Source: Deltaproteobacteria bacterium
GTDB taxonomy: Bacteria > Myxococcota_A > UBA9160 > SMWR01
Direction: 5' to 3'
DNA: 44,448 bases
Assembly: GCA_002729515.1 (NCBI GenBank)
Contig: PBYF01000018.1
Span: 1 to 44,448 of the forward strand
The translations under genes and the position numbers were made by a program. The notes under the pieces are model-generated. The model did no database searches. It had not been told where the DNA came from and was given only the letters and a program-made list of their open reading frames with translations. Each line of letters begins with the position of its first letter. Positions within the stretch are counted from its first letter, which is position 1. This document shows positions 6,962 through 35,956 of this stretch, in pieces.

Positions 6962-7999
6962 CTAGGCGAGTGCGACGTTCTTCAGAAGCGGAAGGTTGTC
7001 CAGCGCCGCACCGGCTCCGTGAACGACGGCGGTGTAGGAATCCTCGCTGCGCAGAATCGGGAGATTGGTCTCCTGACGGAGCACGCTGTCGAGATCTCGA
7101 AGCAGCGAGCCTCCACCGACGAGCATGATACCGCGATCGACGATGTCGGCGGCGAGCTCCGGCGGCGTCTTCTCGAGTGTGAGGAGGACGGCCTCCACGA
7201 TGGCGTGGATCGGCTCGATGAGGGCATCGCGCACCTCATCGCTCGTCGCGACCACGACCTTGGGAATGCCGGCCACCAGGTCGCGGCCCTTGATCTCCAT
7301 GGTCTCGGTCTTCCCCGTCGGCGAGGCGGTGGCGATCGTCATCTTGATCCGCTCGGCGCTTCGCTCGCCCACGAGTATGTTGTACTTGCGCTTCACGTAG
7401 TTGATGATCGCATCGTCCATCTTGTCACCGCCGCAGCGGATCGAGCGGGAGGTGACGATTCCCGAAAGCGAGATCACGGCGACGTCGGTGGTTCCCCCAC
7501 CGATATCGACCACCATGTTTCCGGTCGGTGCGGTGACGTCGAGGCCGGCACCAATGGCTGCGGCCATCGGCTCCTCGATGAGATACACCTCGCGCGCACC
7601 CGCCGACAGAGCGGACTCCCGCACGGCACGCTTTTCGACACTCGTGATACACGGCGGAACGCAGATCACCATCCGAGGCCGAACCAGCTTGCGCCGGCTG
7701 TGGGCGCGATGGATGAAATAGCGGAGCATCGCCTCGGTGATCTCGAAGTCGGCAATGACGCCGTCCTTGATCGGACGGATCGCCCGAATTCCAGTGGGGG
7801 TGCGCCCGAGCATCTCCTTGGCCTCGTGGCCCACGGCCAGCACCTTCTCACCTCGGCCGGAGGCATCCTGCGCCACGGCCACCACCGACGGCTCGGAGCA
7901 GACGAGCCCCTTGCCGCGCACGTAGACCAATGTGTTGGCCGTTCCGAGATCAATGGCGAGATCGTGTGAGAACGCGCCCGCAATCGCGTCGAAGAACAT
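6962..7999 (-). CDS. mreB: Rod-shape actin homologue MreB
   Basis: MreB forms membrane-associated filaments that guide lateral wall synthesis in rod-shaped bacteria. The 345 residues carry the actin-fold signatures: LAIDLGTANTLVYVRGKG (phosphate 1), VVDIGGGTTDVAVISL (phosphate 2) and IMLVGGGSLLRDLD (adenosine), plus YLIEEPMAAAIGAGL. I chose ATG at 7999 (MFFDAIAGAFSHD), which has GGAAGG about 12 bases upstream; an earlier in-frame ATG adds only 12 unconserved residues. Oddly, mreC/mreD do not follow. Instead mreB is the last minus-strand gene after the proteasome operon, 73 bases below the small membrane gene. Confidence 0.97.
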   Translation of the reverse strand: MFFDAIAGAFSHDLAIDLGTANTLVYVRGKGLVCSEPSVVAVAQDASGRGEKVLAVGHEAKEMLGRTPTGIRAIRPIKDGVIADFEITEAMLRYFIHRAHSRRKLVRPRMVICVPPCITSVEKRAVRESALSAGAREVYLIEEPMAAAIGAGLDVTAPTGNMVVDIGGGTTDVAVISLSGIVTSRSIRCGGDKMDDAIINYVKRKYNILVGERSAERIKMTIATASPTGKTETMEIKGRDLVAGIPKVVVATSDEVRDALIEPIHAIVEAVLLTLEKTPPELAADIVDRGIMLVGGGSLLRDLDSVLRQETNLPILRSEDSYTAVVHGAGAALDNLPLLKNVALA

Positions 8000-8072
8000 C
8001 GTTGTCGGTCCCTTCCGCGCTGACGAGAGGCGCAAGCACCGTATCGGCAGTTCATGGGAAGGAATTGAGCAG

Positions 8073-8406: not shown

Positions 8407-9813
8407 CTAGCTCTGGATCACGAGCTTCGAGAGACTCGTCTTCCGCAGATTCGTCTTCTGGATGGTGCGCACCAACTCCGCAACCTTTTCGATGTCCGTC
8501 TCGAAGGGATTGTTGCAGATGACGCGCACGTTCAACAGGTTACCTAGGCGGATGTTCGACCAGTCGAGATCGTATTGGATCGAGTTCTGCCGGGCCAACT
8601 TGATGAACTCGCCCCGCATGCGCGCCCGCGTATCCGTCGGCGGCTCGGTCTTTGCCTTGAGGATCTCCTCATCCTCGAGCACGCGATCTACGGCGCCGGA
8701 GCGCTCGAGCAGGTAGTAGAGACCGCGGTTCATCCGAATGTCGTGGTACTGGAGGTCGAGCATGAATACACGCGAGTCGTTCCAGGTGGTTTCCCGCGAG
8801 TCGATGTAGCTTCGGATCATCGAGCGCTTGATCAACCAGTCAATCTGGCGGTCGAGCTTGCTCGGATCTGTGTCCAGGCAATCGAGCGTGTGCTGCCACA
8901 TCTGCACGGCGAGCTTCAACTCGTCGGATACCGGGTACTGCTCGATGTACTTCTGGGCCATGTCGCAGTACTCGTACTGGATATTGATCGGAGAGTACTC
9001 ACGGCCGCTGTCCAGGCGCAGCTTCCGCTTGCAGGTTGAATCGTAGGAAATGTCCTTGATCGCCTTGACCGGATTGCGGAGCGTGAAATCCTGGTTGATG
9101 TAATTGTCCTCGATCATCTGGAGGACGACCGCACACGCACCAACCTTCAGGAAGTTCGTGTACTCGGACATATTCGAATCACCGACGATCACGTGGAGCC
9201 GGCGATATTTCTCTCGGTCGGCGTGGGGCTCGTCGCGAGTGTTGATGATCGAGCGATCGTTGGTGGTGGTGCCCGATATCTTCTGATAGATGTGCTGGGC
9301 CCGCTGGCTGATGCAGTAACGCACCCCGTCCTGGGTCTGGGAGACCTTGCCCGCACCGGTGTAGATCTGACGGGTCACCAGGAAGGGGATCAACTGTTCG
9401 GCCAGGTAGTAGAAGTCGACGTCGCGGTCGACCAGGTAGTTCTCGTGGCAGCCGTAACTATTGCCCACGAAGTCCGTATTGTTCTTGAAGATCGAAAGCT
9501 TCCCGGCGATGCGCTCCTCGCGGATCTTTTCCTCGGCGTAGACCTGCAGATCCTCGAGGATCCTCTCGCCGGCTTTGTCGAAGAGAATCACCTGGCGCGG
9601 CGAGGCGCACTCCGGGGTGGCGTATTCGGGATGACAGCCGGTGTCCTGGTAGAACCGGGCTCCGTTCTCCAGGAAGACGTTCAGAAAGTGCTCGGTGGTG
9701 ATCAGCTTTTCGAAAAGGAAGCGGATCGCCTTCTCCACGGGCAGTGTCTTGCGCCCGTCAGGCGTGAAAATGATCCCGTATTCCGTCTCGATTCCGTAGA
9801 TCCGCTTCTGCAC
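8407..9813 (-). CDS. pafA: Pup ligase PafA
   Basis: PafA uses ATP to phosphorylate the C-terminal Glu of Pup and joins it to substrate lysines. The 468-residue protein opens RIYGIETEYGI (metal ligand Glu9) and has NGARFYQDTGCHPEYATPEC (50-69) with the catalytic base Asp at 57. It continues with FKNNTDFVGNSYGCHENYL and NTRDEPHADREKYRRLHV, the carboxylate-amine ligase core shared with Dop. It lacks the insertion after the first strand that marks Dop, which separates the two paralogues. The start is GTG at 9813, 23 bases after prcA. Unlike in mycobacteria, where pafA lies apart from prcBA, it directly follows prcA here. Confidence 0.97.
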   Translation of the reverse strand: MQKRIYGIETEYGIIFTPDGRKTLPVEKAIRFLFEKLITTEHFLNVFLENGARFYQDTGCHPEYATPECASPRQVILFDKAGERILEDLQVYAEEKIREERIAGKLSIFKNNTDFVGNSYGCHENYLVDRDVDFYYLAEQLIPFLVTRQIYTGAGKVSQTQDGVRYCISQRAQHIYQKISGTTTNDRSIINTRDEPHADREKYRRLHVIVGDSNMSEYTNFLKVGACAVVLQMIEDNYINQDFTLRNPVKAIKDISYDSTCKRKLRLDSGREYSPINIQYEYCDMAQKYIEQYPVSDELKLAVQMWQHTLDCLDTDPSKLDRQIDWLIKRSMIRSYIDSRETTWNDSRVFMLDLQYHDIRMNRGLYYLLERSGAVDRVLEDEEILKAKTEPPTDTRARMRGEFIKLARQNSIQYDLDWSNIRLGNLLNVRVICNNPFETDIEKVAELVRTIQKTNLRKTSLSKLVIQS

Positions 9814-9836
9814 GTCGGGTCCGCCGGACTTCGAGT

Positions 9837-10535
9837 CTAGCCCGCCAAGTGGTCCCTTACCGTATCGGTGGAAAGGCGGTGGAACTTGCGCCCGATCCGG
9901 CCCCGCTCGAGCACGCAGACTTCGAGGTTTTCGGGTGCAACCTGCGGCTGGCCCTCCGCCGCGCGCTCCAGGGCCCGGCGGCCCAGGTGCAGCGCTTGCC
10001 GGAGGGAGAAAGACTTGCGGTACTCCGACCGAAGAAATGCATCGAGATCGTCGGCGGCGCCACCAATCACGCAGTAGCCCTCGTGGTCACTGATACTGCC
10101 GTCGAACGTCACCCGGTAGATTGAGTTGTGCTCCTGGCCCACCAGTCCGGGATCCCCAACCTCGGCCACGATCAGTTCCACCTCGAGCGGCTTCAGCTGC
10201 TGGGTGAAGGCATCGCCGATGGCCTGGGAATATGCGTTCGCGAGCCCCTTCGCCCGGACGTCCTCTCGAGAGTAGGCATAGCCCTTGGTGTCGGCGTAGC
10301 GCACGCCGAGTTTCCGGAGTTGGTCGAACTCGCTGAACTTCCCCACGCCGGCGAAGGCAACACGGTCGTAGATCTCGCCGATCTTCATCAACGAGGAGAC
10401 GTTCTCGGCCATCAGGACGACCCCCCCCTCGAATTCGAGGGTGACGCTGGACTTTCCGCGGCTAATGCCCTTGCGGGCGTATTCGGCCTTGTCCGCCATC
10501 ACCTGCTCGGGTGACACGTAAAAGGGCATGCTCAT
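9837..10535 (-). CDS. prcA: Proteasome alpha subunit
   Basis: PrcA forms the two outer heptameric rings of the 20S core, which gate the chamber and receive the Arc ATPase. The 232-residue protein begins MSMPFYVSPEQVMADKAEYARKG, close to the gating N-terminus of actinobacterial PrcA, followed by ARKGISRGKSSVTLEF and YDRVAFAGVGKFSEFD. It has no catalytic Thr, as expected. The ATG overlaps the prcB stop (ATGA), so the two subunits are translationally coupled for 1:1 synthesis. Confidence 0.97.
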   Translation of the reverse strand: MSMPFYVSPEQVMADKAEYARKGISRGKSSVTLEFEGGVVLMAENVSSLMKIGEIYDRVAFAGVGKFSEFDQLRKLGVRYADTKGYAYSREDVRAKGLANAYSQAIGDAFTQQLKPLEVELIVAEVGDPGLVGQEHNSIYRVTFDGSISDHEGYCVIGGAADDLDAFLRSEYRKSFSLRQALHLGRRALERAAEGQPQVAPENLEVCVLERGRIGRKFHRLSTDTVRDHLAG

Positions 10536-11311
10536 GAGGCGCCTCGCATGATCGATCGGTAGGCATTCTCGACGTCGGCATCCGAGACACGTTCGATACC
10601 CGACTCCGTGCAGAGGCAGACGATCGGGTAGATGCCGCGCTGGAGATCAACCCCGCCCGTGGCCCGATCCTCGTCGGAAGCGTCGGTCAGGGCCTGTACT
10701 GCGGAATGAAGACCGGCGGCGGCGGACATATCGTTCGAGTGGCTTTTCTTCAGCGACTCGCCGGCGTACAGGCCACCCGAGCCCGTCGCCTCGTAGTCGG
10801 TCTCCTCGTAGCGGCCGCCGGTCATATCGAACTTCCACAGCCGACCCTGGGATCGGCGCGGGTCGTAGCCGGCGAAGAGCGGCACGACAACCATGCCCTG
10901 CATCGCGGCGGGCAGGTTCGCACGCACCATCTGGGAGAGCTTGTTGGCCTTGCCGTCGAGTTCGAGAGAATCGCCCTCGATCTTCTCGTAGTGTTCGAGT
11001 TCGATGCGCATGATGCGCGCCATCTCGATCGCGGGACCGGCCACACCGGCAATCGCCATCAGCGAGTGGTTGTCGGTAGGGTAGACCTTCTCGATGTCGC
11101 GGGAGGCGACGCGGTGGCCCTCCGTCGCCAGCCGGTCGCCCGCAACGAGCACGCCGTCGGCAAACTTGAAGGCCAGCACCGTGGTCCCATGGGGCAGTTT
11201 CGATGGATCGAAGGCGCTCGCGAGCCGGGAGAAATCCGGACGCAGCCCCGGATGATCGATGGAGAGCAACTCCGAAAAGCTCGAACCCTGGTACTTCCCG
11301 CCGACCTGCAC
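10532..11311 (-). CDS. prcB: Proteasome beta subunit (catalytic)
   Basis: PrcB is the Ntn-hydrolase subunit of the inner rings. The 259 residues include a 42-residue propeptide ending LPHG, after which the mature chain would begin TTVLAFKFADG. In mature numbering Thr1, Asp17 (AGDRL) and Lys33 (DIEKVYP), the catalytic set, are all in place, so the subunit should be active after self-cleavage. The start is GTG at 11311 with a G-rich AAGGGGGG upstream. pup lies 50 bases upstream and prcA overlaps downstream, the same pup-prcB-prcA order as in Mycobacterium. Confidence 0.97.
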   Translation of the reverse strand: MQVGGKYQGSSFSELLSIDHPGLRPDFSRLASAFDPSKLPHGTTVLAFKFADGVLVAGDRLATEGHRVASRDIEKVYPTDNHSLMAIAGVAGPAIEMARIMRIELEHYEKIEGDSLELDGKANKLSQMVRANLPAAMQGMVVVPLFAGYDPRRSQGRLWKFDMTGGRYEETDYEATGSGGLYAGESLKKSHSNDMSAAAGLHSAVQALTDASDEDRATGGVDLQRGIYPIVCLCTESGIERVSDADVENAYRSIMRGAS

Positions 11312-11361
11312 ACACCCCCCCTTTATTGCACCACTCGCACCCCAATGGCGGCGTGCGCGCC

Positions 11362-11622
11362 TTATTCTCCTCCCCGCTGGACGTAGTTCTTCACGAACTC
11401 CTCGGCGTTCTCCTCGAGGACCTCGTCGATCTCGTCCACCAGAGCGTCCATCTCTTCTTTCAGTTTCTCGCCCTTCTTGGAGAGCTTCTGCCCCCCCTCG
11501 GAGCCCCCTCCATCCTCAGCGTCTCCGCCCTTGCGCGGCTTCTGCTTCTGACTGGATTCCGCTGCCGACACGATGGGCGGCGCTCGGTGGCTTCCACTTC
11601 CGGGGATCGTGATCACTCGCAT
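11362..11622 (-). CDS. pup: Prokaryotic ubiquitin-like protein Pup
   Basis: Pup is the small disordered tag that marks proteins for the bacterial proteasome. The protein ends NYVQRGGE. The helical recognition part before it (KKGEKLKEEMDALVDEID, VLEENAEEFVKNYV) matches the region that docks into the Arc coiled coil. The final residue is Glu, so Pup is made ready for ligation and needs no deamidation by Dop, unlike the Gln form in Mycobacterium. From ATG 11622 (GGAG eight bases upstream, 19 bases after dop) it is 86 residues, longer than the usual 60-70. The extra N-terminal 30 residues are basic and Ser/Pro-rich. Confidence 0.95.
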   Translation of the reverse strand: MRVITIPGSGSHRAPPIVSAAESSQKQKPRKGGDAEDGGGSEGGQKLSKKGEKLKEEMDALVDEIDEVLEENAEEFVKNYVQRGGE

Positions 11623-11641
11623 GGCTTTCTCCGCATCGGGC

Positions 11642-13126
11642 TCAAGCCCGCAGGTTCTTCACCAGATCCGCCACCGTGGGCGACCGATCCAACAACTCCT
11701 CGACGTGCACCCGTGATCCCTTCAGCGGTTCTGCCATCATGATGCGCTTGATCGGCTCGTCTTCGACGCTGAACGAAATCGAATCCCAGTTCACTCCGAA
11801 TACGGCAGAGCCATAGCGGCGCAGACACTCTCCTCGGAAATATGCGCGAGTGTCGCCAGGAGGTGTAGTCACCGCCGCCAGGATCTCTTCGTCATTGACG
11901 ATACGCTCCACGCGTCCCTGCTTCTCGAGCATGTAGTATAGGCCCTTGTCCGGTCTCAGGTCGTGGTACTGCAGATCGAGCATCTGTACCTGGGGTGCCT
12001 GCCAATCCAAGCCCTTGCGCTCCATGAAGCTCTCGATCAGGACCTTCTTCATCACCCAATCGATGCGGTTCGCAAGTTCCATCGGATCCCGCTCCAACGC
12101 ATCGAGCACATCGGCCCACTTGTCGAGCACGTCGCGCTCCCAGGGCTCGCACGTGCGCCCCGACAGGTAGCGCTCGGCCATCTCGAGGTACTCGCGCTGG
12201 ATCTGCACCGCCGTGAGCTGGCTGCCACTCTCCATGGCCAGCGTGGCACGGCAGGTCGGATCGTGGGAGACCTCTTTGATGGCTCGCACGGGGTCGCGCA
12301 GGCTGAGCGACTTGCGGATCGCACCGTCCTCGATCATCGAGAGAACGATCGCGGTCACCCCCGTGCGCAGATAGATCGTGTATTCGGAGAGGTTCGCATC
12401 CCCCACGATCACGTGGAGCCGGCGATACTTCTCGCGGTCTGCGTGGGGCTCGTCTCGGGTATTGACGATCGGGCGTTTCACCATCGTATCGAGCGCAACT
12501 TCTGTCTCGAAGAAGTCCGCACGCTGGGAGATCTGGTAGTTGCAGGGCTGGCTGCGGTTCTCGCTCCCCGCCTTGCCCGCACCGGTGTAGACCTGGCGCG
12601 TCACGAAGAAGGGCGTCACGTGCTCCACCACCTGCTTGAAAGAGGTTCGGCGGTCCATGAGAAAGTTCTCGTGAGCGCCGTAGCTATTTCCCTTGCGGTC
12701 GCTGTTGTTCTTGTAGAGGAGCAGTTGCGTTCCCGCCGGAAGCAGCGCGTTCGACTCGCGGCGGCTCATCTCCATGATTCGCTCACCCGCCTTCTCGTGT
12801 ACCACGAGGTCGCGTGGACTGGTGACCTCGGGACACGAGTACTCCGGATGCGCATGGTCGACGTAGTAGCGCGCGCCGTTGATGAGAGTCTTGTTCCGGG
12901 CGATGTTCTCCTGCTGGTTCGGGGTGTACTTCTCCCCGTCCACCTGAAACCCCCGAGCGTCGGCGAGCGGGTTCTCCTGGTCGTAGTCCCAGAGAATCTC
13001 ACCCGCGTGGTCCTCGCGATACGCGTTGACCAGCAGCACGCAGCTCGAGATCGGATCGAAATCGGGATCGCCTTTCACAGTGATCCCGTACTCGATTTCC
13101 GTACCCATCACCTTCGGAATGGCCAT
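11642..13126 (-). CDS. dop: Deamidase/depupylase Dop
   Basis: Dop removes Pup from substrates and, in species with Pup-Gln, also deamidates it. This 494-residue paralogue of PafA begins VMGTEIEYGI. It carries the Dop-specific insertion with WDYDQENPLADARGF (46-60), then NGARYYVDHAHPEYSCPE (83-100) with the catalytic Asp at 90. The rest shares YKNNSDRKGNSYGAHENFL and NTRDEPHADREKYRRLHV with PafA. Because Pup here already ends in Glu, depupylation is the likely main job. It sits 27 bases after arc and 19 bases before pup. Confidence 0.97.
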   Translation of the reverse strand: MAIPKVMGTEIEYGITVKGDPDFDPISSCVLLVNAYREDHAGEILWDYDQENPLADARGFQVDGEKYTPNQQENIARNKTLINGARYYVDHAHPEYSCPEVTSPRDLVVHEKAGERIMEMSRRESNALLPAGTQLLLYKNNSDRKGNSYGAHENFLMDRRTSFKQVVEHVTPFFVTRQVYTGAGKAGSENRSQPCNYQISQRADFFETEVALDTMVKRPIVNTRDEPHADREKYRRLHVIVGDANLSEYTIYLRTGVTAIVLSMIEDGAIRKSLSLRDPVRAIKEVSHDPTCRATLAMESGSQLTAVQIQREYLEMAERYLSGRTCEPWERDVLDKWADVLDALERDPMELANRIDWVMKKVLIESFMERKGLDWQAPQVQMLDLQYHDLRPDKGLYYMLEKQGRVERIVNDEEILAAVTTPPGDTRAYFRGECLRRYGSAVFGVNWDSISFSVEDEPIKRIMMAEPLKGSRVHVEELLDRSPTVADLVKNLRA

Positions 13127-13153
13127 CAGATCACCGGCGCGTTCTGCGCCCCC

Positions 13154-14998
13154 CTAGAGATACTGGCCCGAGGTGACGTTCTCAATCGACTGCTCCTTGC
13201 GATTCATGCCCGTCATGAGCGTGCGCACGTTGATGATACGCTCACCTTTCCGACCGGAGATGCGGGCCCAGTCATCGGGATTCGTAGTGTTCGGAAGATC
13301 TTCGTTCTCCTTGAACTCATCGGTCACGGACTCGATCATGTCGTCGAGCCGGATTCCGCGCTCGCCGTGGTCGATGGTGCGCTTGACCGCCTTCTTCTTG
13401 GCACGCGCGACGATGTTCTCGACCATCGCACCGCTGGCGAAGTCCTTGAAGTAGAAGATCTCGCGCTCGCCCTTGGCGTAGGTGACTTCCAGGAATTTGT
13501 TGTCATCGTCTGTGCGGTACATGCGGTCGATCGTGTCTTCGATCATCCGAATGACGATCTGATCCGGTTCTCCACCGTACTGCTGCACCGCCTCCTCGTG
13601 GAACGGGAGATCCGCGGTGAGATACTTGGAAAAGATCTCACGCGCCGCATCTCGGTCGGGTCGGTTCACCTTGACCTTCAGATCGAGACGGCCGGGTCGC
13701 AGCACCGCGGGATCGATCAGGTCCTGCCGATTGCTGGCCCCGATGACGATCACGTTGTTGAGCGACTCGACACCATCGATCTCCGCCAGGAATTGGGCGA
13801 CGACGGTGGCCTCCATATCCGACGAAATTCCCGAGCCCCGCATACGGAAGAGCGAGTCCATTTCGTCGAAGAAAATCACGACGGGCACGTCTTCGCTGGC
13901 CTTGTCCCGAGCCTTCTTGAAGACCTCGCGCAGCTTGTGCTCCGTCTCGCCGACGTACTTGTTGAGCAGTTCCGGTCCCTTCACGTTCAGGAAGTACGCG
14001 CTCGTCTCCTTGCCGGTGCGCTTCTCGATGCTCCGAGCCAGACTGTTCGCGACGGCCTTGGCGATGAGCGTCTTCCCGCAGCCCGGAGGCCCGTAGAGAA
14101 GGATGCCCTTCGGCGGCCGCAGCTTGTGCTCGGCGAAGATCTCGGGATGCACGTAGGGAAGTTCGACCGAGTCTCGCAATGTCTCGATCTGCTCCGCCAG
14201 ACCCCCGATCTTCTCGTAGGTGACATCGGGAATCTCCTCGAGCACCACCTCTTCGACCGCCGACTTCGGAAGCTTCTCGAAGGCGAAGTGGGTGCGCGGG
14301 TCGAAGAGCAGGTGGTCCCCGACCTTGAGCTTCTCGCTGCGCAGCGGCTCCGCCAGGGTCACCACGCGTTCGTCGTCCGTATGACCGAGAACGATCGCGC
14401 GGTTGTCGGCGAGCAGATCGACTACCGAAGCAATCTCACCGCGGGGAACATAGCCCGACCCCTCGATTACGTTGAAGGCCTCGTTGAGGACGACCAGTTG
14501 ACCTTCTTCGAATGTAAAGGCATCGAGATTTGGGTGAACGTTTACGCGCATCTGGCGACCGTCCACCAAGATCTCCGCTGTACCGTCTTTGTTCGCGCAG
14601 TTGAAGATGCCGTAGTTGTTCGGCGGCGCGCAGAGCTTGTCGACCTCCTCCTTGAGAAGTTCGATCTGTTGTTTGGCCTCCTGCAGCACCGACACGAGGC
14701 GCTCGTTCTGACGCTCGGCATCCGCACACTGCTCCCGGGTGAGCTGGTAGCGGCGCCGCAGCGCTTCGAATTCGGCGACCAGGCGATCGAGTCGGCGCCG
14801 GAACTCATCGGAGTCACTGCCGAACAGCCGCACCGCGTCCTGGAGGTCTTCGACCTCATCGCGGTACGAGCGCGCGTCCCCGCGCTGTTCCGGACTTCCC
14901 TCAGAACCATCTTCGTCCGACGGCGCAGACGACGAGATCCGCCGCATTACGTCGTGGACGAAACCCCTCCTGCCCGATCCCGAATCGAACTCGCTCAT
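13154..14998 (-). CDS. arc: Proteasomal AAA+ ATPase Arc/Mpa
   Basis: Arc (Mpa in Mycobacterium) is the hexameric ring that binds Pup, unfolds tagged proteins and feeds them to the 20S core. In order, the 614 residues show a disordered acidic start, a coiled coil (about 45-122) that captures Pup, two OB folds (about 125-250), and an AAA domain with GPPGCGKT at 303-310 and FFDE at 376-379. The C-terminus is GQYL (611-614), the tail that docks into PrcA pockets and opens the gate. The start ATG has GAGGAG upstream. It is the first gene of the operon. Confidence 0.98.
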   Translation of the reverse strand: MSEFDSGSGRRGFVHDVMRRISSSAPSDEDGSEGSPEQRGDARSYRDEVEDLQDAVRLFGSDSDEFRRRLDRLVAEFEALRRRYQLTREQCADAERQNERLVSVLQEAKQQIELLKEEVDKLCAPPNNYGIFNCANKDGTAEILVDGRQMRVNVHPNLDAFTFEEGQLVVLNEAFNVIEGSGYVPRGEIASVVDLLADNRAIVLGHTDDERVVTLAEPLRSEKLKVGDHLLFDPRTHFAFEKLPKSAVEEVVLEEIPDVTYEKIGGLAEQIETLRDSVELPYVHPEIFAEHKLRPPKGILLYGPPGCGKTLIAKAVANSLARSIEKRTGKETSAYFLNVKGPELLNKYVGETEHKLREVFKKARDKASEDVPVVIFFDEMDSLFRMRGSGISSDMEATVVAQFLAEIDGVESLNNVIVIGASNRQDLIDPAVLRPGRLDLKVKVNRPDRDAAREIFSKYLTADLPFHEEAVQQYGGEPDQIVIRMIEDTIDRMYRTDDDNKFLEVTYAKGEREIFYFKDFASGAMVENIVARAKKKAVKRTIDHGERGIRLDDMIESVTDEFKENEDLPNTTNPDDWARISGRKGERIINVRTLMTGMNRKEQSIENVTSGQYL

Positions 14999-15019
14999 GC
15001 CGATGTCTCCTCGTTCGTC

Positions 15020-15037
15020 CTCCCCCCTTCGGGGGAG
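15020..15037 (-). promoter_or_regulatory. Stable hairpin in the arc leader
   Basis: Arms CTCCCCC and GGGGGAG (7 bp, four-base loop) lie just upstream of the arc Shine-Dalgarno on the minus-strand transcript. No U-tract follows, so this is not an intrinsic terminator; it could influence ribosome access or mRNA stability. Confidence 0.45.
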
Positions 15038-15047
15038 CAGGCTTCGG

Positions 15048-15227
15048 CTAAACGAGAAAGCAAGACCCGTGCCGCACGCACCGAGACGGACCCTCTAACA
15101 GGGCTCCCGAAACCACGCATCCCTCTCCGGAAAGGGAGCCAGCGCTTCGAGTCCCGTGGAAAAAGAACCACTCCCGCTGTAGTGAGAGTCCGTTGAGCGG
15201 CGAGGTCATGAAGCCATCGCTCATCAT
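15048..15227 (-). CDS. Possible leader ORF of the proteasome operon
   Basis: A 59-codon frame starting ATGATG at 15227 lies in the arc leader with a strong GGAGGGG about five bases upstream, and ends 49 bases before the arc ATG. The peptide (MMSDGFMTSPLNGLSLQ to start, ending in HGSCFLV) matches nothing I know and its codon use is unlike the neighbours. It may be a regulatory upstream ORF or a chance frame behind a G-rich tract. Low confidence. Confidence 0.2.
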   Translation of the reverse strand: MMSDGFMTSPLNGLSLQREWFFFHGTRSAGSLSGEGCVVSGALLEGPSRCVRHGSCFLV

Positions 15228-15328
15228 CTGGTCCCCTCCCCCTACACCCTACACCTGCATTCCGGTTCTGGGAGGAGTGCGCGGAAAAGCGTAGAACCTC
15301 GCGGAAACACAAACTTTTTAGGTATCCG

Positions 15329-15356
15329 AGTCTAGCCGAGGGCCTCGGGGTGTCAA
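15329..15356 (-). promoter_or_regulatory. Sigma-70 promoter of the proteasome operon
   Basis: On the minus strand TTGACA (15356-15351) is followed after 16 bases by TAGACT (15334-15329), a perfect -35 and a good -10. Transcription would start near 15322 and leave a leader of about 320 nt before arc. It is the best promoter match seen between lolA and arc. Confidence 0.7.
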
Positions 15357-15703: not shown

Positions 15704-15716
15704 TCAGTTCGGAGGG
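15673..15716. repeat. 22-bp tandem duplication over the lolA stop codon
   Basis: Two exact head-to-tail copies of a 22-base unit (15673-15694 and 15695-15716). The proximal copy contains the last codons and the TGA stop of lolA on the minus strand; the distal copy repeats the same end downstream. The copies are identical, which suggests a recent duplication. Confidence 0.95.
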
Positions 15717-16378
15717 GCCAGTTCGATCACCTCGACGCCCTCCGGGGCATCGAAGCGAAACAATGCCGAATCCGGTGACGTGTTCACGCGCATGTCAGTG
15801 AAGGCCACTCGGGTCTCGTTGCCGAGCAGATCCACGACCTGAGTCTCGAGTATCTCCCCGGTCTGCGGATCCACGGCAACGCGCAATCGCTCGTACGCCG
15901 CCGGTTGGAGCGGTGTCAGTACGACGCGCACGCGGGTCGCCTCACACGCCTCCTCGCGCACGGAAAAGGTCCCGGCGATGTCCGCCTCGCCCAGCAGGAG
16001 CGGAATCGCTGCGCCGGAGAGCGCTCCCCCGGCGACCGAGAGCTTCTGGGCCTCACCGCTCCCGATCTCGTGGATCCACATCCACTCGCCGTCACTCACG
16101 ACGAGGCTTCGCTCCGGCTCCGTGTAGGTCCAACGCATCCGGTCTGGCCTGGCGAATACGACCTTGCCCTGGCTCCGGGTCACGGCACCGGGACCCCCGA
16201 ACGCCACGGAGCGCGATTCCTGGCTGAACCGGGCGCTGAGGTCCTCAACGCTCGCGTAGAGCTGTTTCACTGCCTCGACGGCACGCTCCGCACACTGGGA
16301 TGCGTTCTCATCGGCGCCCGCGGGCAACGCCGCCAGGAGCACGAGGGCCAACAGGGTGTGCGGAGCACGAAACCTCAC
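15704..16378 (-). CDS. lolA: Outer-membrane lipoprotein carrier protein LolA
   Basis: LolA ferries lipoproteins across the periplasm from LolCDE to the outer membrane. The 224-residue protein has a signal peptide (APHTLLALVLLAALPAGADE), then the family features: LYASVEDLSARFSQESRS, QGKVVFARPDRMRWTYTEPE, SLVVSDGEWMWIHE and a C-terminal FRFDAPEGVEVIEL. The start is GTG at 16378; the frame runs upstream opposite the end of ftsK without coding sense. It follows ftsK by 31 bases, the classic ftsK-lolA arrangement, and implies an outer membrane with lipoproteins. Confidence 0.92.
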   Translation of the reverse strand: MRFRAPHTLLALVLLAALPAGADENASQCAERAVEAVKQLYASVEDLSARFSQESRSVAFGGPGAVTRSQGKVVFARPDRMRWTYTEPERSLVVSDGEWMWIHEIGSGEAQKLSVAGGALSGAAIPLLLGEADIAGTFSVREEACEATRVRVVLTPLQPAAYERLRVAVDPQTGEILETQVVDLLGNETRVAFTDMRVNTSPDSALFRFDAPEGVEVIELAPPN

Positions 16379-16409
16379 CTCTCGTTCGACGACCCGGAGC
16401 CGGCGGCAT

Positions 16410-18797
16410 TCACGCGTCGATCGCGCTGACATAGACCTCGCGGGGCTTGGTGCCCTCCTGCGGTCCCACGACGCCCTCGTTCTCCATGTGCTCCACCATG
16501 CGCGCTGCCCGGTTGTATCCGACCTTGAGGCGCCGCTGGATGTAGGAGATCGAGGCATTGCGCGTCTCGGCCACGATGGCCACGGCGCGATCGTACATCT
16601 CGTCCACGTCCTCGTTCGATCCGGACTCCCTGGCCTCGCCTTCCTCCTGGGCACGGATCAGTGCGTCGTCGAAGTGCGGCGCCCCCTGCTGCCGGAGCTG
16701 GCTCACGAGCTCCGCGACCTCCTCCTCCGTCACGAATGCACCGTGAACACGCTGGAGTTTCGACGTGCCCGGCGGGAGGAAGAGCATGTCCCCCATCCCC
16801 AACAGCTGTTCGCCGCCGTTCTGATCGAGAATCGTCCGCGAGTCGGTCCGCGAGGAAACCTGGAAAGAGATGCGGGCTGGAAAGTTCGCTTTGATGACGC
16901 CGGTGAGGACGTCGACGCTGGGTCGCTGGGTCGCCAGCACGAGGTGAATACCCGCCGCCCGAGCCATCTGGGCCAGACGCTGGAGCGATTCCTCCACCTC
17001 GCGTGCAGAGACAACCATCAGGTCCGCAAGCTCGTCGATAACGACCACGATGTACGGGAAGTGGCGGAAGGGCACCTCTTCGCCCTCCTCCTCTCCGGGC
17101 TTCGGCCTCAGACGGAAGGTCTTCTTGCCGGCGTCGAGTTCCTTCGCCACCCGGCCGTTGTACTGATCGATGCTGCGCACGCCGAGCGCCGCCATCATCT
17201 GGTAGCGCTCCTCCATCTTGTGCACGATGCCGTTCAATGCCGCAGCGGCTTGCTTCGGGTTGGTGACGACGTCCGCGATGAGGTGCGGAATTCCCTCGTA
17301 GATCGAGAGCTCGAGGAGCTTCGGGTCGATGAGCAGCAGCTTGAGATCGTTGGGGGGCGTCCGGCAGAGGATCGAGCAGAGGAGCGAATTGAGAAAAACG
17401 CTCTTGCCGGTTCCCGTGGCCCCAGCGACGAGCAGATGGGGCATCCGAGTAAGGTCCGCAAAGGTCGGGTTTCCGAAAATATCCTTGCCGAGCGCAATGT
17501 TGAGCCGAGTACCGTCTTCGCGGAAGGCCTCCGAGTCCACCAGGTCGCGGATACAGACGGTTTCCCGCTCCTGGTTGGCCACCTCGATCCCGACCACCGA
17601 TTTTCCGGGAAGCGGCGCAATGATGCGCACTGACAGCGCTCGCAGGGCCAGCGCGAGGTCGTCGGAGAGACTGACGATCCGGTTCACCTTGACGCCCGAG
17701 GCCGGCTCGAACTCGTACATCGTGATCACAGGTCCCGGGTGGACCGTGATGACGCGCCCCCCGACACTGAAGTCGGCGAGCTTCTTCTCGAGGATGCGCG
17801 AGTTCATGATCAAGCTGTCGCGGTCGTAACTGCGCTTCTGCGAAGTCGGCTTCTGGAAGAGCGTGACGTCGGGCAGCCGGTAGGGTCCGGAGGAAGCGGT
17901 ATCCTCGAAGCTGAAGGCCTCCTGGTGCTCGGTGCGCTCGCGCGCCCTGTCCGCGGCGTGATCCACGATCATCGGGGAGCCGGTTGCGGCGGGACGCTTC
18001 GGGGACGCCGCCTCAACGGATGCGGACGCGGGATCGCTCTCCGGTCTCTCCGCCTCCGCAACCCGCGCCCGCCGACGGCGCTGCTCCCGCCAAACCCCGA
18101 GTCGCGCGAAACCACGCGCCAGGCCCATGCCGAGCTGGCGGGTCGCACGCTGCGCGCGGCCCGCCAGCGCGCTCACGCTCTCGAAAAGCCAGATGGCGAC
18201 AGCGGCGAGTGCGCCGCCGACCCACCCGAGGGCAACGCCGATCGCACCGAGCCCGGCACCGGTGGACACCCCGGTCCAACTCAGCGCGCCGATGGAAACG
18301 ATCACCGCGTTGAGGAGGAGCGCGCCCCAGGCCCCGACAAATCGACCCTCGGCACTCGCGAGGCTCCGCCCCAGCCAACCGACCGGCACACCCGCCGCAC
18401 GGCCGGGGAATGCCTCTGCGACGAGCGGCGGCAACGTGGCTGCCGCGAGTATCAGGAGAACCGCGCCCACCCAGAAACGCGATGTGGGCGGCGGGACTCC
18501 CCGAGCCAGGAGCAGTCGGAGCCCGACGTAGCCGAGCGCCACAACGAATACGACGGCCCCGAGCCCGAGCGTGCCGAAAAGGACGGCGGCGGTGGTGGCC
18601 CCGAACACGCCCGCACGGTTTTCCACGTTCCCCGCCTCGAAAAGGGCATCGTCGGGCGAAAACGTCCAGAGCCCGAGCGCGAGCAATAGCGCGAGCCCCA
18701 CGAGGGCTACGCCGACGCACTCCCGCACCACCCGCGAAGTCACCTTTGCGGAGCGGGTCTCCTTGGACCTGCGCCGTCCGGCGGCGGCCCTAGCCAT
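16410..18797 (-). CDS. ftsK: DNA translocase FtsK
   Basis: FtsK anchors at the division septum and pumps the chromosome terminus so that dimers can be resolved at dif. The 795 residues have four or five membrane helices (about 27-210), a short Arg/Ala-rich linker (210-300), the alpha/beta RecA-like motor with GATGTGKS at 459-466 and LLLIDPKLLELS, and a C-terminal winged-helix gamma domain (about 725-795, YDRAVAIVAETRNASISYIQ) that reads KOPS sites. The linker is much shorter than in E. coli. ATG 18797 has GGGAAGG upstream. lolA follows in the same unit. Confidence 0.97.
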   Translation of the reverse strand: MARAAAGRRRSKETRSAKVTSRVVRECVGVALVGLALLLALGLWTFSPDDALFEAGNVENRAGVFGATTAAVLFGTLGLGAVVFVVALGYVGLRLLLARGVPPPTSRFWVGAVLLILAAATLPPLVAEAFPGRAAGVPVGWLGRSLASAEGRFVGAWGALLLNAVIVSIGALSWTGVSTGAGLGAIGVALGWVGGALAAVAIWLFESVSALAGRAQRATRQLGMGLARGFARLGVWREQRRRRARVAEAERPESDPASASVEAASPKRPAATGSPMIVDHAADRARERTEHQEAFSFEDTASSGPYRLPDVTLFQKPTSQKRSYDRDSLIMNSRILEKKLADFSVGGRVITVHPGPVITMYEFEPASGVKVNRIVSLSDDLALALRALSVRIIAPLPGKSVVGIEVANQERETVCIRDLVDSEAFREDGTRLNIALGKDIFGNPTFADLTRMPHLLVAGATGTGKSVFLNSLLCSILCRTPPNDLKLLLIDPKLLELSIYEGIPHLIADVVTNPKQAAAALNGIVHKMEERYQMMAALGVRSIDQYNGRVAKELDAGKKTFRLRPKPGEEEGEEVPFRHFPYIVVVIDELADLMVVSAREVEESLQRLAQMARAAGIHLVLATQRPSVDVLTGVIKANFPARISFQVSSRTDSRTILDQNGGEQLLGMGDMLFLPPGTSKLQRVHGAFVTEEEVAELVSQLRQQGAPHFDDALIRAQEEGEARESGSNEDVDEMYDRAVAIVAETRNASISYIQRRLKVGYNRAARMVEHMENEGVVGPQEGTKPREVYVSAIDA

Positions 18798-32962: not shown

Positions 32963-35704
32963 TCAGCTACAGCCGCTTGTGCTCCCGCAGTTGGGACATT
33001 TGTAACAAGCACCGTTGCGGATCATGATCGAGCCGCAATCGCTACAGCTCGGTGCGTCGGCCTGGTTGATCATGGCGTAGGCTCCCACCGGATCGCCTGC
33101 GCCACCGGCCACAGCCGCCAGCTCCGGCCTTCGATCGGACTCGCCATCGAGTCCCGCCGCCTCCGCGTCGGTCTCCTGCTCGTCGTCCACCACCGGCTCA
33201 CCCTGGAGAAAACGGTTTCCGAGGAACCGAAAAACATAGTCCATCACCGACTTGGCGATCGGGATCTCGCGGTTGTTCGTGAAACCTGCAGGTTCGAAGC
33301 GGGTGTGACTGAACTTGTCCACCAGCGTCTTGAGCGGAACGCGGTACTGGAGCGCGATTGACGTCATGGTCGCGATCGTGTCCATCAGGCCGGAGACCGT
33401 GCTGCCCTCCTTCGCCATGCGCAGGAAGATCTCACCGGGCTGCCCGTCTTCGTAGAGGCCCACCGTCAGATAGCCCTCGTGACCTGCAATCGAGAACTTG
33501 TGGGTGACGGCGCTGCGCTCGTCGGGGAGCTTCAGTCGCACCGGCCGGAGGGCGTCGGTTTCGGTCTTCTTCTCTTCATTCCTACCGGCGTTGAGCGGCT
33601 GGGTGCGCTTGCTGCCATCGCGGTACACAGCCAATGCCTTGAGGCCGAGCCTCCAGCCTTCGATATAAGCCTGGGTGATGTCGTCGACGCTGGCGTCTTC
33701 CGGCAGGTTCACGGTCTTGCTGATCGCTCCCGACAGGAAGGGCTGCACGGCGCCCATCATCCGCAGGTGACCCATCCACTTTATGCTGCGGCTCCCGTTG
33801 ACGGGGCGGAACGCACAGTCGAAGACCGACAGGTGCTTTTCGTGCAGCCCCGGTGCTCCCTCGATCGTCTCGTGCTCGTCCAAGTAAGCGGTAATCGCGT
33901 CGACCTCGTCCGCGGCGTAGCCGAGGCGACCGAGCGCCATCGCAACCGTATTGTTCACGATCTTGAGCAACCCGCCGCCAACGAGCTTCTTGTACTTGAT
34001 GAGAGCGATGTCCGGCTCCACACCGGTGGTATCGCAGTCCATCATGAACGCGATCGTTCCCGTAGGAGCGAGAACCGTGACCTGGGCATTCTTGAAGCCG
34101 TGCCGGCGCCCTGCGGCGAGGGCCGCCGCCCAACTCTCGCGGGCCGCGTCGAGCAGATCCACCTGCACGCCGGAGCTGGGAACCGCGTCCGCCGCGGCCT
34201 TGTGCATACCCACCACTTCCAGGAAGGATTTTCGGTTGACCCGGTAGCGCGAGAACGGACCCATCGCCTCTGCAATTTCGGCCGAGGCCAGGTAGGCCTG
34301 TCCACACATGAGTGACGTCAGCGCAGCCGCCACGTTCCGGCCGGCGTCACTGTCATAGGGCAGGCCCGACGCCATCAGCAGGGCCCCGAGATTGGCATAG
34401 CCGAGACCGAGCGTGCGGAACAGGTGACTGTTTCGCTCGATCGCGGGAGTGGGATACGCGGCGTGATCGACCATGATCTCCTGGCTGAGGATCGTGATGG
34501 CCACCGCCCGCCGGTACGATTCCACGTCGAATCGACCGTCCTCGTCGAGGAACTGCATCAGGTTCAAGCTCGCCAGGTTGCACGCCGTGTCGTCCAGGAA
34601 CATGTACTCGGAACAGGGATTGCTCGCGTTGATGCGACCCGAAGCCTTGACCGTGTTCCAGCGATTGATGGTGGTGTCGTACTGGACACCGGGATCTCCG
34701 CAGACGTGGGTCGCCTCGGCCATCGCATGGAGGATTTCCCGCGCCTTGTAGTTGTCACAGGAATTGCCTGTCAGCACCTCGTGAGTCTGCCAGTCGCCGT
34801 CCGAGAGCACGCCGTGCATGAACGAGTCGGTGACCCGCACCGAGTGATTGGCGTTCTGGAAGAACACCGAGTCGTAGGCGCCGCCCGGAGCGTTGAAGCC
34901 ACCGTCGTAGCCCTGGTCGATGAGCGCCCAGGCCTTCTTCTCCTCCGCGGCCTTGCAGTGGATGAACTCCATGATGTCCGGGTGATCGGTGTCCAGGATC
35001 ACCATCTTCGCGGCACGGCGGGTCTTGCCGCCGCTCTTGATCACGCCGGCAAAGGCGTCGAAGCCCTTCATGAAAGAGACCGGACCCGACGCAACTCCGC
35101 CGCCCGCGAGATTCTCCTTCGAGGAGCGGATCTTCGAGAGGTTCGACCCTGCGCCCGAGCCGCCCTTGAATAACATCGCCTCGGTCTTGGCGAGATCCAT
35201 GATCGAAGTCATGGTGTCGTCTACCGAGTTGATGAAGCAGGCACTCGCCTGCTGGGGTGTGTCTTCGATCCCGAGGTTGAACCACACGGGACTGTTGAAG
35301 GCCATCCGCTGCGTCACCAGGATGTGCTTGAGCTCATCGCGGTAGGCGTCGCGATCCTCATCCGTACGGAAGTAGCCCGAAGCCTCGCCCCACTCCACGA
35401 TGCGGCCGACCACGCGCCCGATGAGCTGCTTGACGCTGTATTCGCGCTCAGGTGTACCGATGTGACCGCGGAAGTACTTGGAGACGACGACATTGGTCGC
35501 GAGTTGGGACCACGCCTTCGGAACCTCGACGTCGGTCTGCTCGAAGACGACCTCGCCCTGATCATCGGTGATCCTGGCATTGCGCAGTTGCCACTCGACC
35601 CCATCGAACGGGTCCTCACCCGACCGGGTGAAATGTCGGGGAATCGAAAGCCCCTTCGGCTTGCGTTTCTCGCGGCGACGACCGCTCCTCGCGGTGGCAC
35701 TCAT
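32963..35704 (-). CDS. nrdJ: Adenosylcobalamin-dependent ribonucleotide reductase (class II)
   Basis: Class II NrdJ makes deoxyribonucleotides with or without oxygen, using vitamin B12 to form the thiyl radical. The 913 residues carry the RNR barrel segments FNSPVWFNLGI, ACFINSVDDTM, FKGGSGAGSNLSKIRS, NPCSEYMFLDDTACNLASLN and APTGTIAFMMDCDTTGVEPD. They end in a zinc-ribbon (CSDCGSIMIRNGACYKCPNC) typical of long NrdJ proteins. ATG 35704 was chosen, with AGGAG about 11 bases upstream. No nrdAB or nrdD is in the window. The leader of about 600 bases is discussed separately. Confidence 0.97.
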   Translation of the reverse strand: MSATARSGRRREKRKPKGLSIPRHFTRSGEDPFDGVEWQLRNARITDDQGEVVFEQTDVEVPKAWSQLATNVVVSKYFRGHIGTPEREYSVKQLIGRVVGRIVEWGEASGYFRTDEDRDAYRDELKHILVTQRMAFNSPVWFNLGIEDTPQQASACFINSVDDTMTSIMDLAKTEAMLFKGGSGAGSNLSKIRSSKENLAGGGVASGPVSFMKGFDAFAGVIKSGGKTRRAAKMVILDTDHPDIMEFIHCKAAEEKKAWALIDQGYDGGFNAPGGAYDSVFFQNANHSVRVTDSFMHGVLSDGDWQTHEVLTGNSCDNYKAREILHAMAEATHVCGDPGVQYDTTINRWNTVKASGRINASNPCSEYMFLDDTACNLASLNLMQFLDEDGRFDVESYRRAVAITILSQEIMVDHAAYPTPAIERNSHLFRTLGLGYANLGALLMASGLPYDSDAGRNVAAALTSLMCGQAYLASAEIAEAMGPFSRYRVNRKSFLEVVGMHKAAADAVPSSGVQVDLLDAARESWAAALAAGRRHGFKNAQVTVLAPTGTIAFMMDCDTTGVEPDIALIKYKKLVGGGLLKIVNNTVAMALGRLGYAADEVDAITAYLDEHETIEGAPGLHEKHLSVFDCAFRPVNGSRSIKWMGHLRMMGAVQPFLSGAISKTVNLPEDASVDDITQAYIEGWRLGLKALAVYRDGSKRTQPLNAGRNEEKKTETDALRPVRLKLPDERSAVTHKFSIAGHEGYLTVGLYEDGQPGEIFLRMAKEGSTVSGLMDTIATMTSIALQYRVPLKTLVDKFSHTRFEPAGFTNNREIPIAKSVMDYVFRFLGNRFLQGEPVVDDEQETDAEAAGLDGESDRRPELAAVAGGAGDPVGAYAMINQADAPSCSDCGSIMIRNGACYKCPNCGSTSGCS

Positions 35705-35956
35705 CCCCTGGTTCGCTCCTACCGTGCCCCGCGATTCCGTGGTCGGCGTCCCGTTCACCTTTCCCCCTGGCGTGGAAGTCCTTCTGACCGCCACTTTTGT
35801 CCGCCCTTGGATCGAATCTCGGTGCCCCACCTGGCCACCGATAGCTATGTGCCCTCCCGAATGCGCGAATCTGCGATGGGCGCCTCAGACACGCGCCGGC
35901 GTTGGAGACGAAACGCCCACCCCGGTGCGACTTCTGTTTGCCGCAAAGGGTCGGGC

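Follow-up and report, generated by a model that had tools for sequence, protein, structure and literature searches.

The 44,448-nucleotide contig PBYF01000018.1 of a Deltaproteobacteria bacterium (assembly GCA_002729515.1, 4.4 Mb in 149 contigs), referred to here in its full length as the window, carries a six-gene Pup-proteasome operon in a genome predicted to be that of a Gram-negative bacterium. The locus raises the question of where such an operon comes from, and of how far it resembles the actinobacterial system. The origin of the bacterial proteasome is usually placed in Actinobacteria, with later transfer to Gram-negatives (PMC7947786; De Mot 2007 as cited in PMC5666114). De Mot 2007 (cited in PMC5666114 and PMC3511204) reported a Gram-negative proteasome, the Nitrospirota loci being described first in Leptospirillum. 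The system and its gene order are thus known, and its Gram-negative occurrence has been on record, as cited there, since 2007. As far as our searches show, two things are new: the class-wide retention of the system at one chromosomal site, and an N-terminal leader on Pup; the literature searched, mostly outside subscription journals, gave no description of a Pup leader or of a proteasome throughout a Myxococcota class.

An earlier note, made from the sequence alone, had read the genes arc-dop-pup-prcB-prcA-pafA as lying head to tail, and profiles and coordinates confirm the complete set: all six are on the minus strand, from 14998 to 8407 of the window, with gaps of 27 nucleotides (nt) between arc and dop, 19 between dop and pup, 50 between pup and prcB and 23 between prcA and pafA, and a 4-nt overlap of prcB and prcA. 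Arc, Dop, Pup, PrcB and PrcA score above the cut-offs of their NCBIfam models (Table 1), and Pfam profiles concur with the NCBIfam calls for the operon genes. PafA falls 8 bits below the 551-bit cut-off of its own model but reaches only 407 bits on the Dop model, and it matches solved PafA chains at 353 bits and solved Dop chains at 333. The profiles separate these two paralogues imperfectly (PMC7947786); in a joint tree the window's PafA falls in the PafA half and its Dop in the Dop half. Every catalytic or docking feature named in the earlier note is present. Arc has two OB domains, an AAA domain and a GQYL tail, and the solved chains closest to it carry the name proteasome-associated ATPase. 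The catalytic Asp lies in the motif GARFYQD of PafA and GARYYVD of Dop, PrcB T43 aligns with the first residue of solved mature chains, D17 and K33 (numbered on the mature chain) are in place, and Pup ends in RGGE, within the GGE/GGQ type. The alpha subunit and the Thr-active beta subunit, both over their profile cut-offs, would make up a 20S core. PrcB is not of the HslV type: it scores 21 bits against HslV (model cut-off 137) and 291 against bacterial 20S beta. The description of a complete and compact system, found in a lineage that has lolA as a diderm marker, therefore stands.

The window's Pup differs from the familiar protein at its N terminus. It has 86 residues, versus about 60-70 in the standard protein, of which the closest solved Pup chains cover only 25-86; the stretch upstream of the usual start is a leader that ends in a motif of the type L-P-I-Y-x-A-A-E. 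The leader pattern is found in 118 of the 120 best homologues, a set obtained with a leader-bearing Pup as query and therefore biased towards the leader. Among these 118 the leader varies in length from 18 to 33 residues (median 21; 20 in the window), while Pup from A-E onward measures 65-67 residues in all of them. The motif positions are conserved as Pro in 94, Ile in 91, Tyr, Val or Phe in 107, any residue, Ala in 117, Ala in 117 and Glu or Asp in 116. A less biased census covers the loci with an identified Pup (the duplicates L179, L199 and L201 left out; L138, a near-identical copy on contig C115, standing for the window). Here the pattern occurs in 25 of 33 loci of the class (31 of 33 by eye) and in all five loci of the sister phylum, versus 1 of 85 Pups of other phyla; throughout, the class is the Myxococcota class of the window's genome, and the sister phylum is the five-genome phylum reached through locus L018. 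Across 25 loci, the first two positions of the two Ala codons carry at most 0.40 bits of variation and the third positions 1.92 and 1.60 bits, as expected of a leader that is translated and under selection.

This codon pattern bears directly on the possibility that the leader is untranslated, the true start lying further in and the upstream frame being only mRNA, which we consider highly improbable. In 12 of 35 class Pup frames a Met does stand 66-70 residues from the end, near the usual start. The window's Pup, however, has no Met there (IVSAAES), and a GGAG precedes the leader ATG by 6 nt. Taking the leader as part of the protein, we lean towards a complete Pup-tagging 20S proteasome, predicted to function in the actinobacterial manner, in which the leader would likely be the handle that Arc grips first. 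PafA would join the GGE terminus of Pup to a target lysine and Dop would take Pup off again; since Pup already ends in GGE, no deamidation should be needed. Arc would bind the helical part of Pup, draw in its N terminus and unfold the target, and the PrcAB cylinder, presumably matured by a cut before T43, would degrade it. In mycobacteria, Pup lies antiparallel along the coiled coils of the ATPase, so that its disordered N terminus points into the pore and is threaded first; in the structure, the first 15 Pup residues occupy the ATPase channel (PMC8755798). By homology, the pore loops of Arc would meet the leader before any other part of Pup, and the hydrophobic, aromatic and Pro-bearing patch of the leader may offer them a grip; the stretch that follows is rich in Gly, Ser and charged residues. 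AlphaFold2 models the leader without secondary structure and places a single helix at 44-82 (mean pLDDT 61.8).

Several points weigh against the handle. The AlphaFold2 model has low confidence and carries little weight as evidence on the leader, and two class loci (L008 and L126) and one homologue (P0176) have Pup without it, which indicates that it is not indispensable. The leader may also have another role, as a processing signal or an adaptor site. Processing is the main rival because the motif ends exactly where ordinary Pup starts: several acidimicrobial Pups begin M-A-E-R-E-Q, where the window's class has A-A-E-S-x-Q-K-Q. The leader would then be a propeptide, removed by a protease that cuts before A-E to give the N terminus that ordinary Pup has after loss of Met, and tagging would be controlled by processing. 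The constant length after the motif, beside a variable leader, fits this reading, to which we give perhaps a minor share of the probability; against it, a cleavage motif does not require the conserved aromatic residue or the Pro, and no candidate protease has been identified, none having been searched for. The leader provides a natural variant of the threading end of the tag, which the ATPase pulls in first, and with it an opening to study which features make for a good proteasome initiation site.

The operon is nearly universal in the class. If a 20S beta (prcB) match above the profile cut-off is taken as presence, a proteasome occurs in 77 of 90 class genomes. Set against a class-wide proteasome are the remaining 13; nine of them are less than 90% complete, and G003 has a partial match, but G055, G070, G073 and G087 are at least 90% complete and have no prcB over the cut-off, so that losses are likely. 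A sample of 282 genomes from the phylum gave 54 above the cut-off, every one of them a class member; by hand count this is 54 of 59 class genomes versus 0 of 223 others; the 59 are the class members among the genomes listed, and 151 matchless genomes outside the list were taken as non-class because the list is ordered by relatedness. In 55 of the 223 non-class genomes the profile gives weak matches (about 20-33 bits), which are probably HslV and its kin. The beta subunit and Arc are present in all five genomes of the sister phylum. The same profile detects a proteasome in 29 of 60 sampled genomes in the phylum of L034 (Actinomycetota), in 24 of 61 in that of L074 (Nitrospirota) and in 34 of 50 in that of L025 (Rokubacteria, NC10 and kin).

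The chromosomal site is shared as well. All 24 class loci with five full-length genes have the same gene order; in 23 of them no gap exceeds 600 bp, and in 21 the neighbours ftsK, lolA and mreB are present as well; L013, L014 and L135 have no mreB within the stretch compared, and several others have it a few kilobases further on. This common site between ftsK-lolA and mreB, across the families of the class, suggests that the proteasome was present in the class ancestor and has mostly been inherited vertically since. One class genome, G004, has two non-identical prcB loci (L120 and L121, on contigs C7 and C43), each running into a contig end inside the operon; they could represent two strains or a real duplication.

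Relatives in other assemblies also speak to the integrity of the contig. The 12 nearest loci in named genomes have PafA 81-92% identical to that of the window, and their records are called Deltaproteobacteria or Myxococcota bacterium; several of these genomes presumably belong to GTDB class UBA9160. The window's assembly has a contamination estimate of 7.7% and a doubled contig, C115, whose copy of the operon is 99.98% identical (4 mismatches over the 20 kb compared) and is taken as assembly redundancy because of that identity; two real operon copies in the genome are rejected for the 20 kb of C115 compared. That the contig is chimeric or the operon a contaminant, as the contamination estimate and the doubled contig might suggest, has a negligible probability in our judgement, since the 21 class loci with ftsK, lolA and mreB, from other assemblies, have the same neighbours on both sides as the window. 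The synteny search in related genomes that had been proposed thus bore out the operon and its surroundings, and the recurrence of the junctions argues against a chimera.

The all-in-one order itself, which had been taken as unusual in comparison with Mycobacterium, turns out to be the rule. The canonical order is present in 98 of the 99 five-gene loci compared (pup itself not part of the count; duplicates L138, L179, L199 and L201 left out), and gene order has been described as rigidly conserved (PMC3511204). In the same census, 53 of 54 non-actinobacterial loci have no gap over 600 bp, versus 23 of 45 actinobacterial ones. Compactness therefore appears to be the common state outside Actinobacteria, and the spread mycobacterial order to be one of the loosened ones. 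The only two departures in orientation that we saw are the acidimicrobial-type loci L057 and L078, where pafA is on the strand opposite dop-pup-prcBA. A number of dop-prcB-prcA loci, several of them cut by contig ends, yielded no Pup-like frame of the expected end between dop and prcB (L021, L025, L027, L042, L182-L192 and L195 in Methylomirabilota; L166, L167 and L170 in Nitrospirota); their tag may be elsewhere or divergent.

To place the operon among its relatives we used the old paralogues PafA and Dop, which root each other in a joint tree. The first such tree held 51 chosen loci and the window, from 147 PafA and 141 Dop sequences. A careful tree of 90 rows dropped seven loci from this set: L059, L143, L171 and L173 had been flagged as long, L168 and L169 belong to the group of L171, and L046 is the partner of L059; L167, also flagged as long, was retained. 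The PrcA+PrcB tree held 43 loci and the window. Operons of a second type, described below, were omitted from the PafA/Dop and PrcA+PrcB trees, and L175 from the Arc, second-root PrcB and concatenated trees. The PafA and Dop halves are alike: 20 actinobacterial taxa form one clade (100/100), three Rokubacteria-type taxa stand beside it (100/99 and 96/84), and the class and the sister phylum group together outside it (100/99 and 97/95). The Arc tree rooted on the second-type operons concurs, with a long-branch warning. Two trees place the root among Actinobacteria instead: the free PrcA+PrcB tree, and that of PrcB with the second-type operons as outgroup. The rooting of the former is not firm, because holding Actinobacteria together gives a likelihood better than that of the free tree by 4.2 log units. 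The mutual rooting of PrcA and PrcB in this free tree was discarded as a root, with a root branch of 5+5 changes per column, the better tree being the one with Actinobacteria together, and with the two halves differing on the basal actinobacteria. The sister phylum is joined to the class in the PrcA, Arc, PafA, Dop and concatenated trees and not in the PrcB trees.

Approximately unbiased (AU) tests were chosen after the first PafA/Dop tree had been seen and are therefore not blind. For all four proteins tested (PafA, Dop, PrcA and PrcB), grouping with Acidimicrobiia-type sequences (a set including L156 and L159, which group there) is rejected (p <=0.0031; 0.0019 for PrcA and 0.0031 for PrcB). 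Acidimicrobiia were once suggested as the donor for Nitrospirae (PMC3511204); for the window's operon, an acidimicrobial-type donor is excluded by these sequence-based tests. A clade uniting this lineage with all Actinobacteria and no other sequences is rejected for PafA (p 0.0003) and Dop (p 0.0015), and a split of Actinobacteria versus all others is not (PafA p 0.32, Dop p 0.22).

The published view, carried over to this locus, is that the whole operon is of actinobacterial origin and reached a common diderm source by an old transfer. It agrees with the surviving split and with the free PrcA+PrcB and second-type-rooted PrcB trees, in which non-actinobacterial sequences lie inside a paraphyletic Actinobacteria. 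The actinobacterial monophyly in PafA and Dop, with Rokubacteria-type taxa beside it, the class outside and Arc concurring, speaks against it, as do the likelier PrcA/PrcB tree with monophyletic Actinobacteria and the rejected acidimicrobial and all-Actinobacteria groupings, and we regard it as rather unlikely. We also propose, no less tentatively, a combined reading in which the class and the sister phylum have a two-part Pup, whose selected initiation leader (a grip or a pro-segment) would control entry into the Arc pore, and in which the operon would descend from a non-actinobacterial lineage that predates the actinobacterial clade. Were this so, Actinobacteria would be receivers or sisters, not the source, of the Gram-negative proteasomes, and Pup would have a regulatory layer absent from the mycobacterial protein. 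The earlier note's interpretation, that the operon was acquired as a unit or represents an ancestral form, is thus partly supported: the phylogenies that it called for dismiss an acidimicrobial-type donor and leave the split of Actinobacteria versus all others standing, and on the choice that it posed the trees diverge, with PafA, Dop and Arc favouring a non-actinobacterial root and the prcB trees not. A near-universal system, mostly at one site and branching outside Actinobacteria in PafA and Dop, makes the view of an actinobacterial origin directly testable.

Compared with known systems, the locus shares with the actinobacterial Pup-proteasome the six components, their order, the GQYL tail, the catalytic residues and the GGE/GGQ end. 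Unlike that system, it has the 20-residue Pup leader, lies between ftsK-lolA and mreB, and belongs to a genome that also has an HslV-type gene. The latter (L003, on contig C124; Pfam proteasome match of 80 bits) has an XerC-like open reading frame (ORF) before it and an HslU-like ORF after it, both recognized by eye, which makes it likely that HslUV accompanies the 20S proteasome in this genome. The Bpa family gave no match in this genome and none in any control genome either, so that an inference of absence is unsupported. The Nitrospirota loci are similarly compact operons in a Gram-negative lineage, with the same order in 13 of 13 five-gene loci, but their Pup has no leader (0 of 11) and they form a separate clade in PafA and Dop. 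In Plesiocystis, another bacterium of the old Deltaproteobacteria, a Pup and PafA-family locus has been described, reportedly without adjoining proteasome genes (PMC2588565), whereas the window has all of them.

The second-type operons occur at four loci in Nitrospirota (L180, L181) and Poribacteria (L196, L197), in genomes that also hold an ordinary Pup-proteasome operon, and we take them to be UBact-like. They have arc-dop-pup-prcB-prcA and a second gene of the ligase/depupylase type in the same order as the window. Unlike the window's tag, an ordinary Pup with GGE, theirs ends in R-T-G-E without GGE, and their proteins have diverged strongly: PrcB scores 120-144 bits against the window's PrcB, versus at least 214 in other loci. 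Two copies of the proteasome operon have been reported in Leptospirillum ferrooxidans (PMC3511204).

Table 1. Features of the operon and its surroundings (window coordinates; aa, amino acids; bits are profile scores unless solved chains are named)
Feature	Position	Strand	Details
ftsK, conserved upstream neighbour	16410..18797	-	Pfam FtsK_SpoIIIE, alpha and gamma domains
lolA, conserved upstream neighbour	15704..16441	-	TIGR00547 115 bits (cut-off 112); start provisional
Putative sigma-70-like promoter upstream of arc	15329..15356	-	TTGACA-16-TAGACT; 10/12 consensus matches
arc, Mpa/ARC proteasomal AAA ATPase	13154..14998	-	614 aa; C terminus GQYL; TIGR03689 735 bits (cut-off 505)
dop, depupylase/deamidase	11642..13126	-	494 aa; TIGR03688 593 bits (cut-off 492); solved Dop 538 bits; GARYYVDHAHPEY in translation
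pup	11362..11622	-	86 aa; C terminus GGE; TIGR03687 57 bits (cut-off 41) and PF05639
Pup N-terminal leader	11563..11622	-	20 residues before the A-E where a normal-length Pup begins; motif ...PIVSAAESSQKQ
prcB, 20S beta subunit	10532..11311	-	propeptide, then T43; TIGR03690 291 bits (cut-off 192); solved proteasome beta chains 226 bits
prcA, 20S alpha subunit	9837..10535	-	TIGR03691 282 bits (cut-off 139)
pafA, Pup ligase	8407..9813	-	TIGR03686 543 bits; PafA half of joint tree
Small ORF, 110 aa	8073..8405	-	1 nt after pafA, before mreB; one membrane helix and coiled-coil-like tail by eye
mreB, conserved downstream neighbour	6962..8035	-	TIGR00904 505 bits

Upstream of arc, the single strong promoter that had been proposed is at first sight unremarkable, since two sites of this kind, TTGACA-16-TAGACT among them, occur in the window versus 1.4 expected, which is not above chance on its own. 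The claim gains support from the recurrence of a similar site about 350-500 bp upstream of arc (distances approximate) in 11 of 14 class loci (the window is among them; L006, L120 and L129 are the exceptions), a count made without a shuffle control on other loci. With a looser promoter pattern, 14 upstream regions (of at most 18 tried) could be aligned, and conservation covers only the hexamers and a few following bases. A conserved untranslated RNA between promoter and arc was rejected, nothing beyond these bases being conserved in the 14 regions; an Rfam scan of the window gave no match and a tRNA scan none.

As for the neighbours, lolA and mreB are as the earlier note had them, with ftsK in addition, and lgt was not met among the 40 ORFs scanned with Pfam, of 251 listed. 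The small ORF between pafA and mreB matches no Pfam or NCBIfam family and has weak relatives in part of the class loci. Elsewhere in the window, at 32963-35830 on the minus strand, lies a gene for the large chain of a class II (B12-dependent) ribonucleotide reductase.

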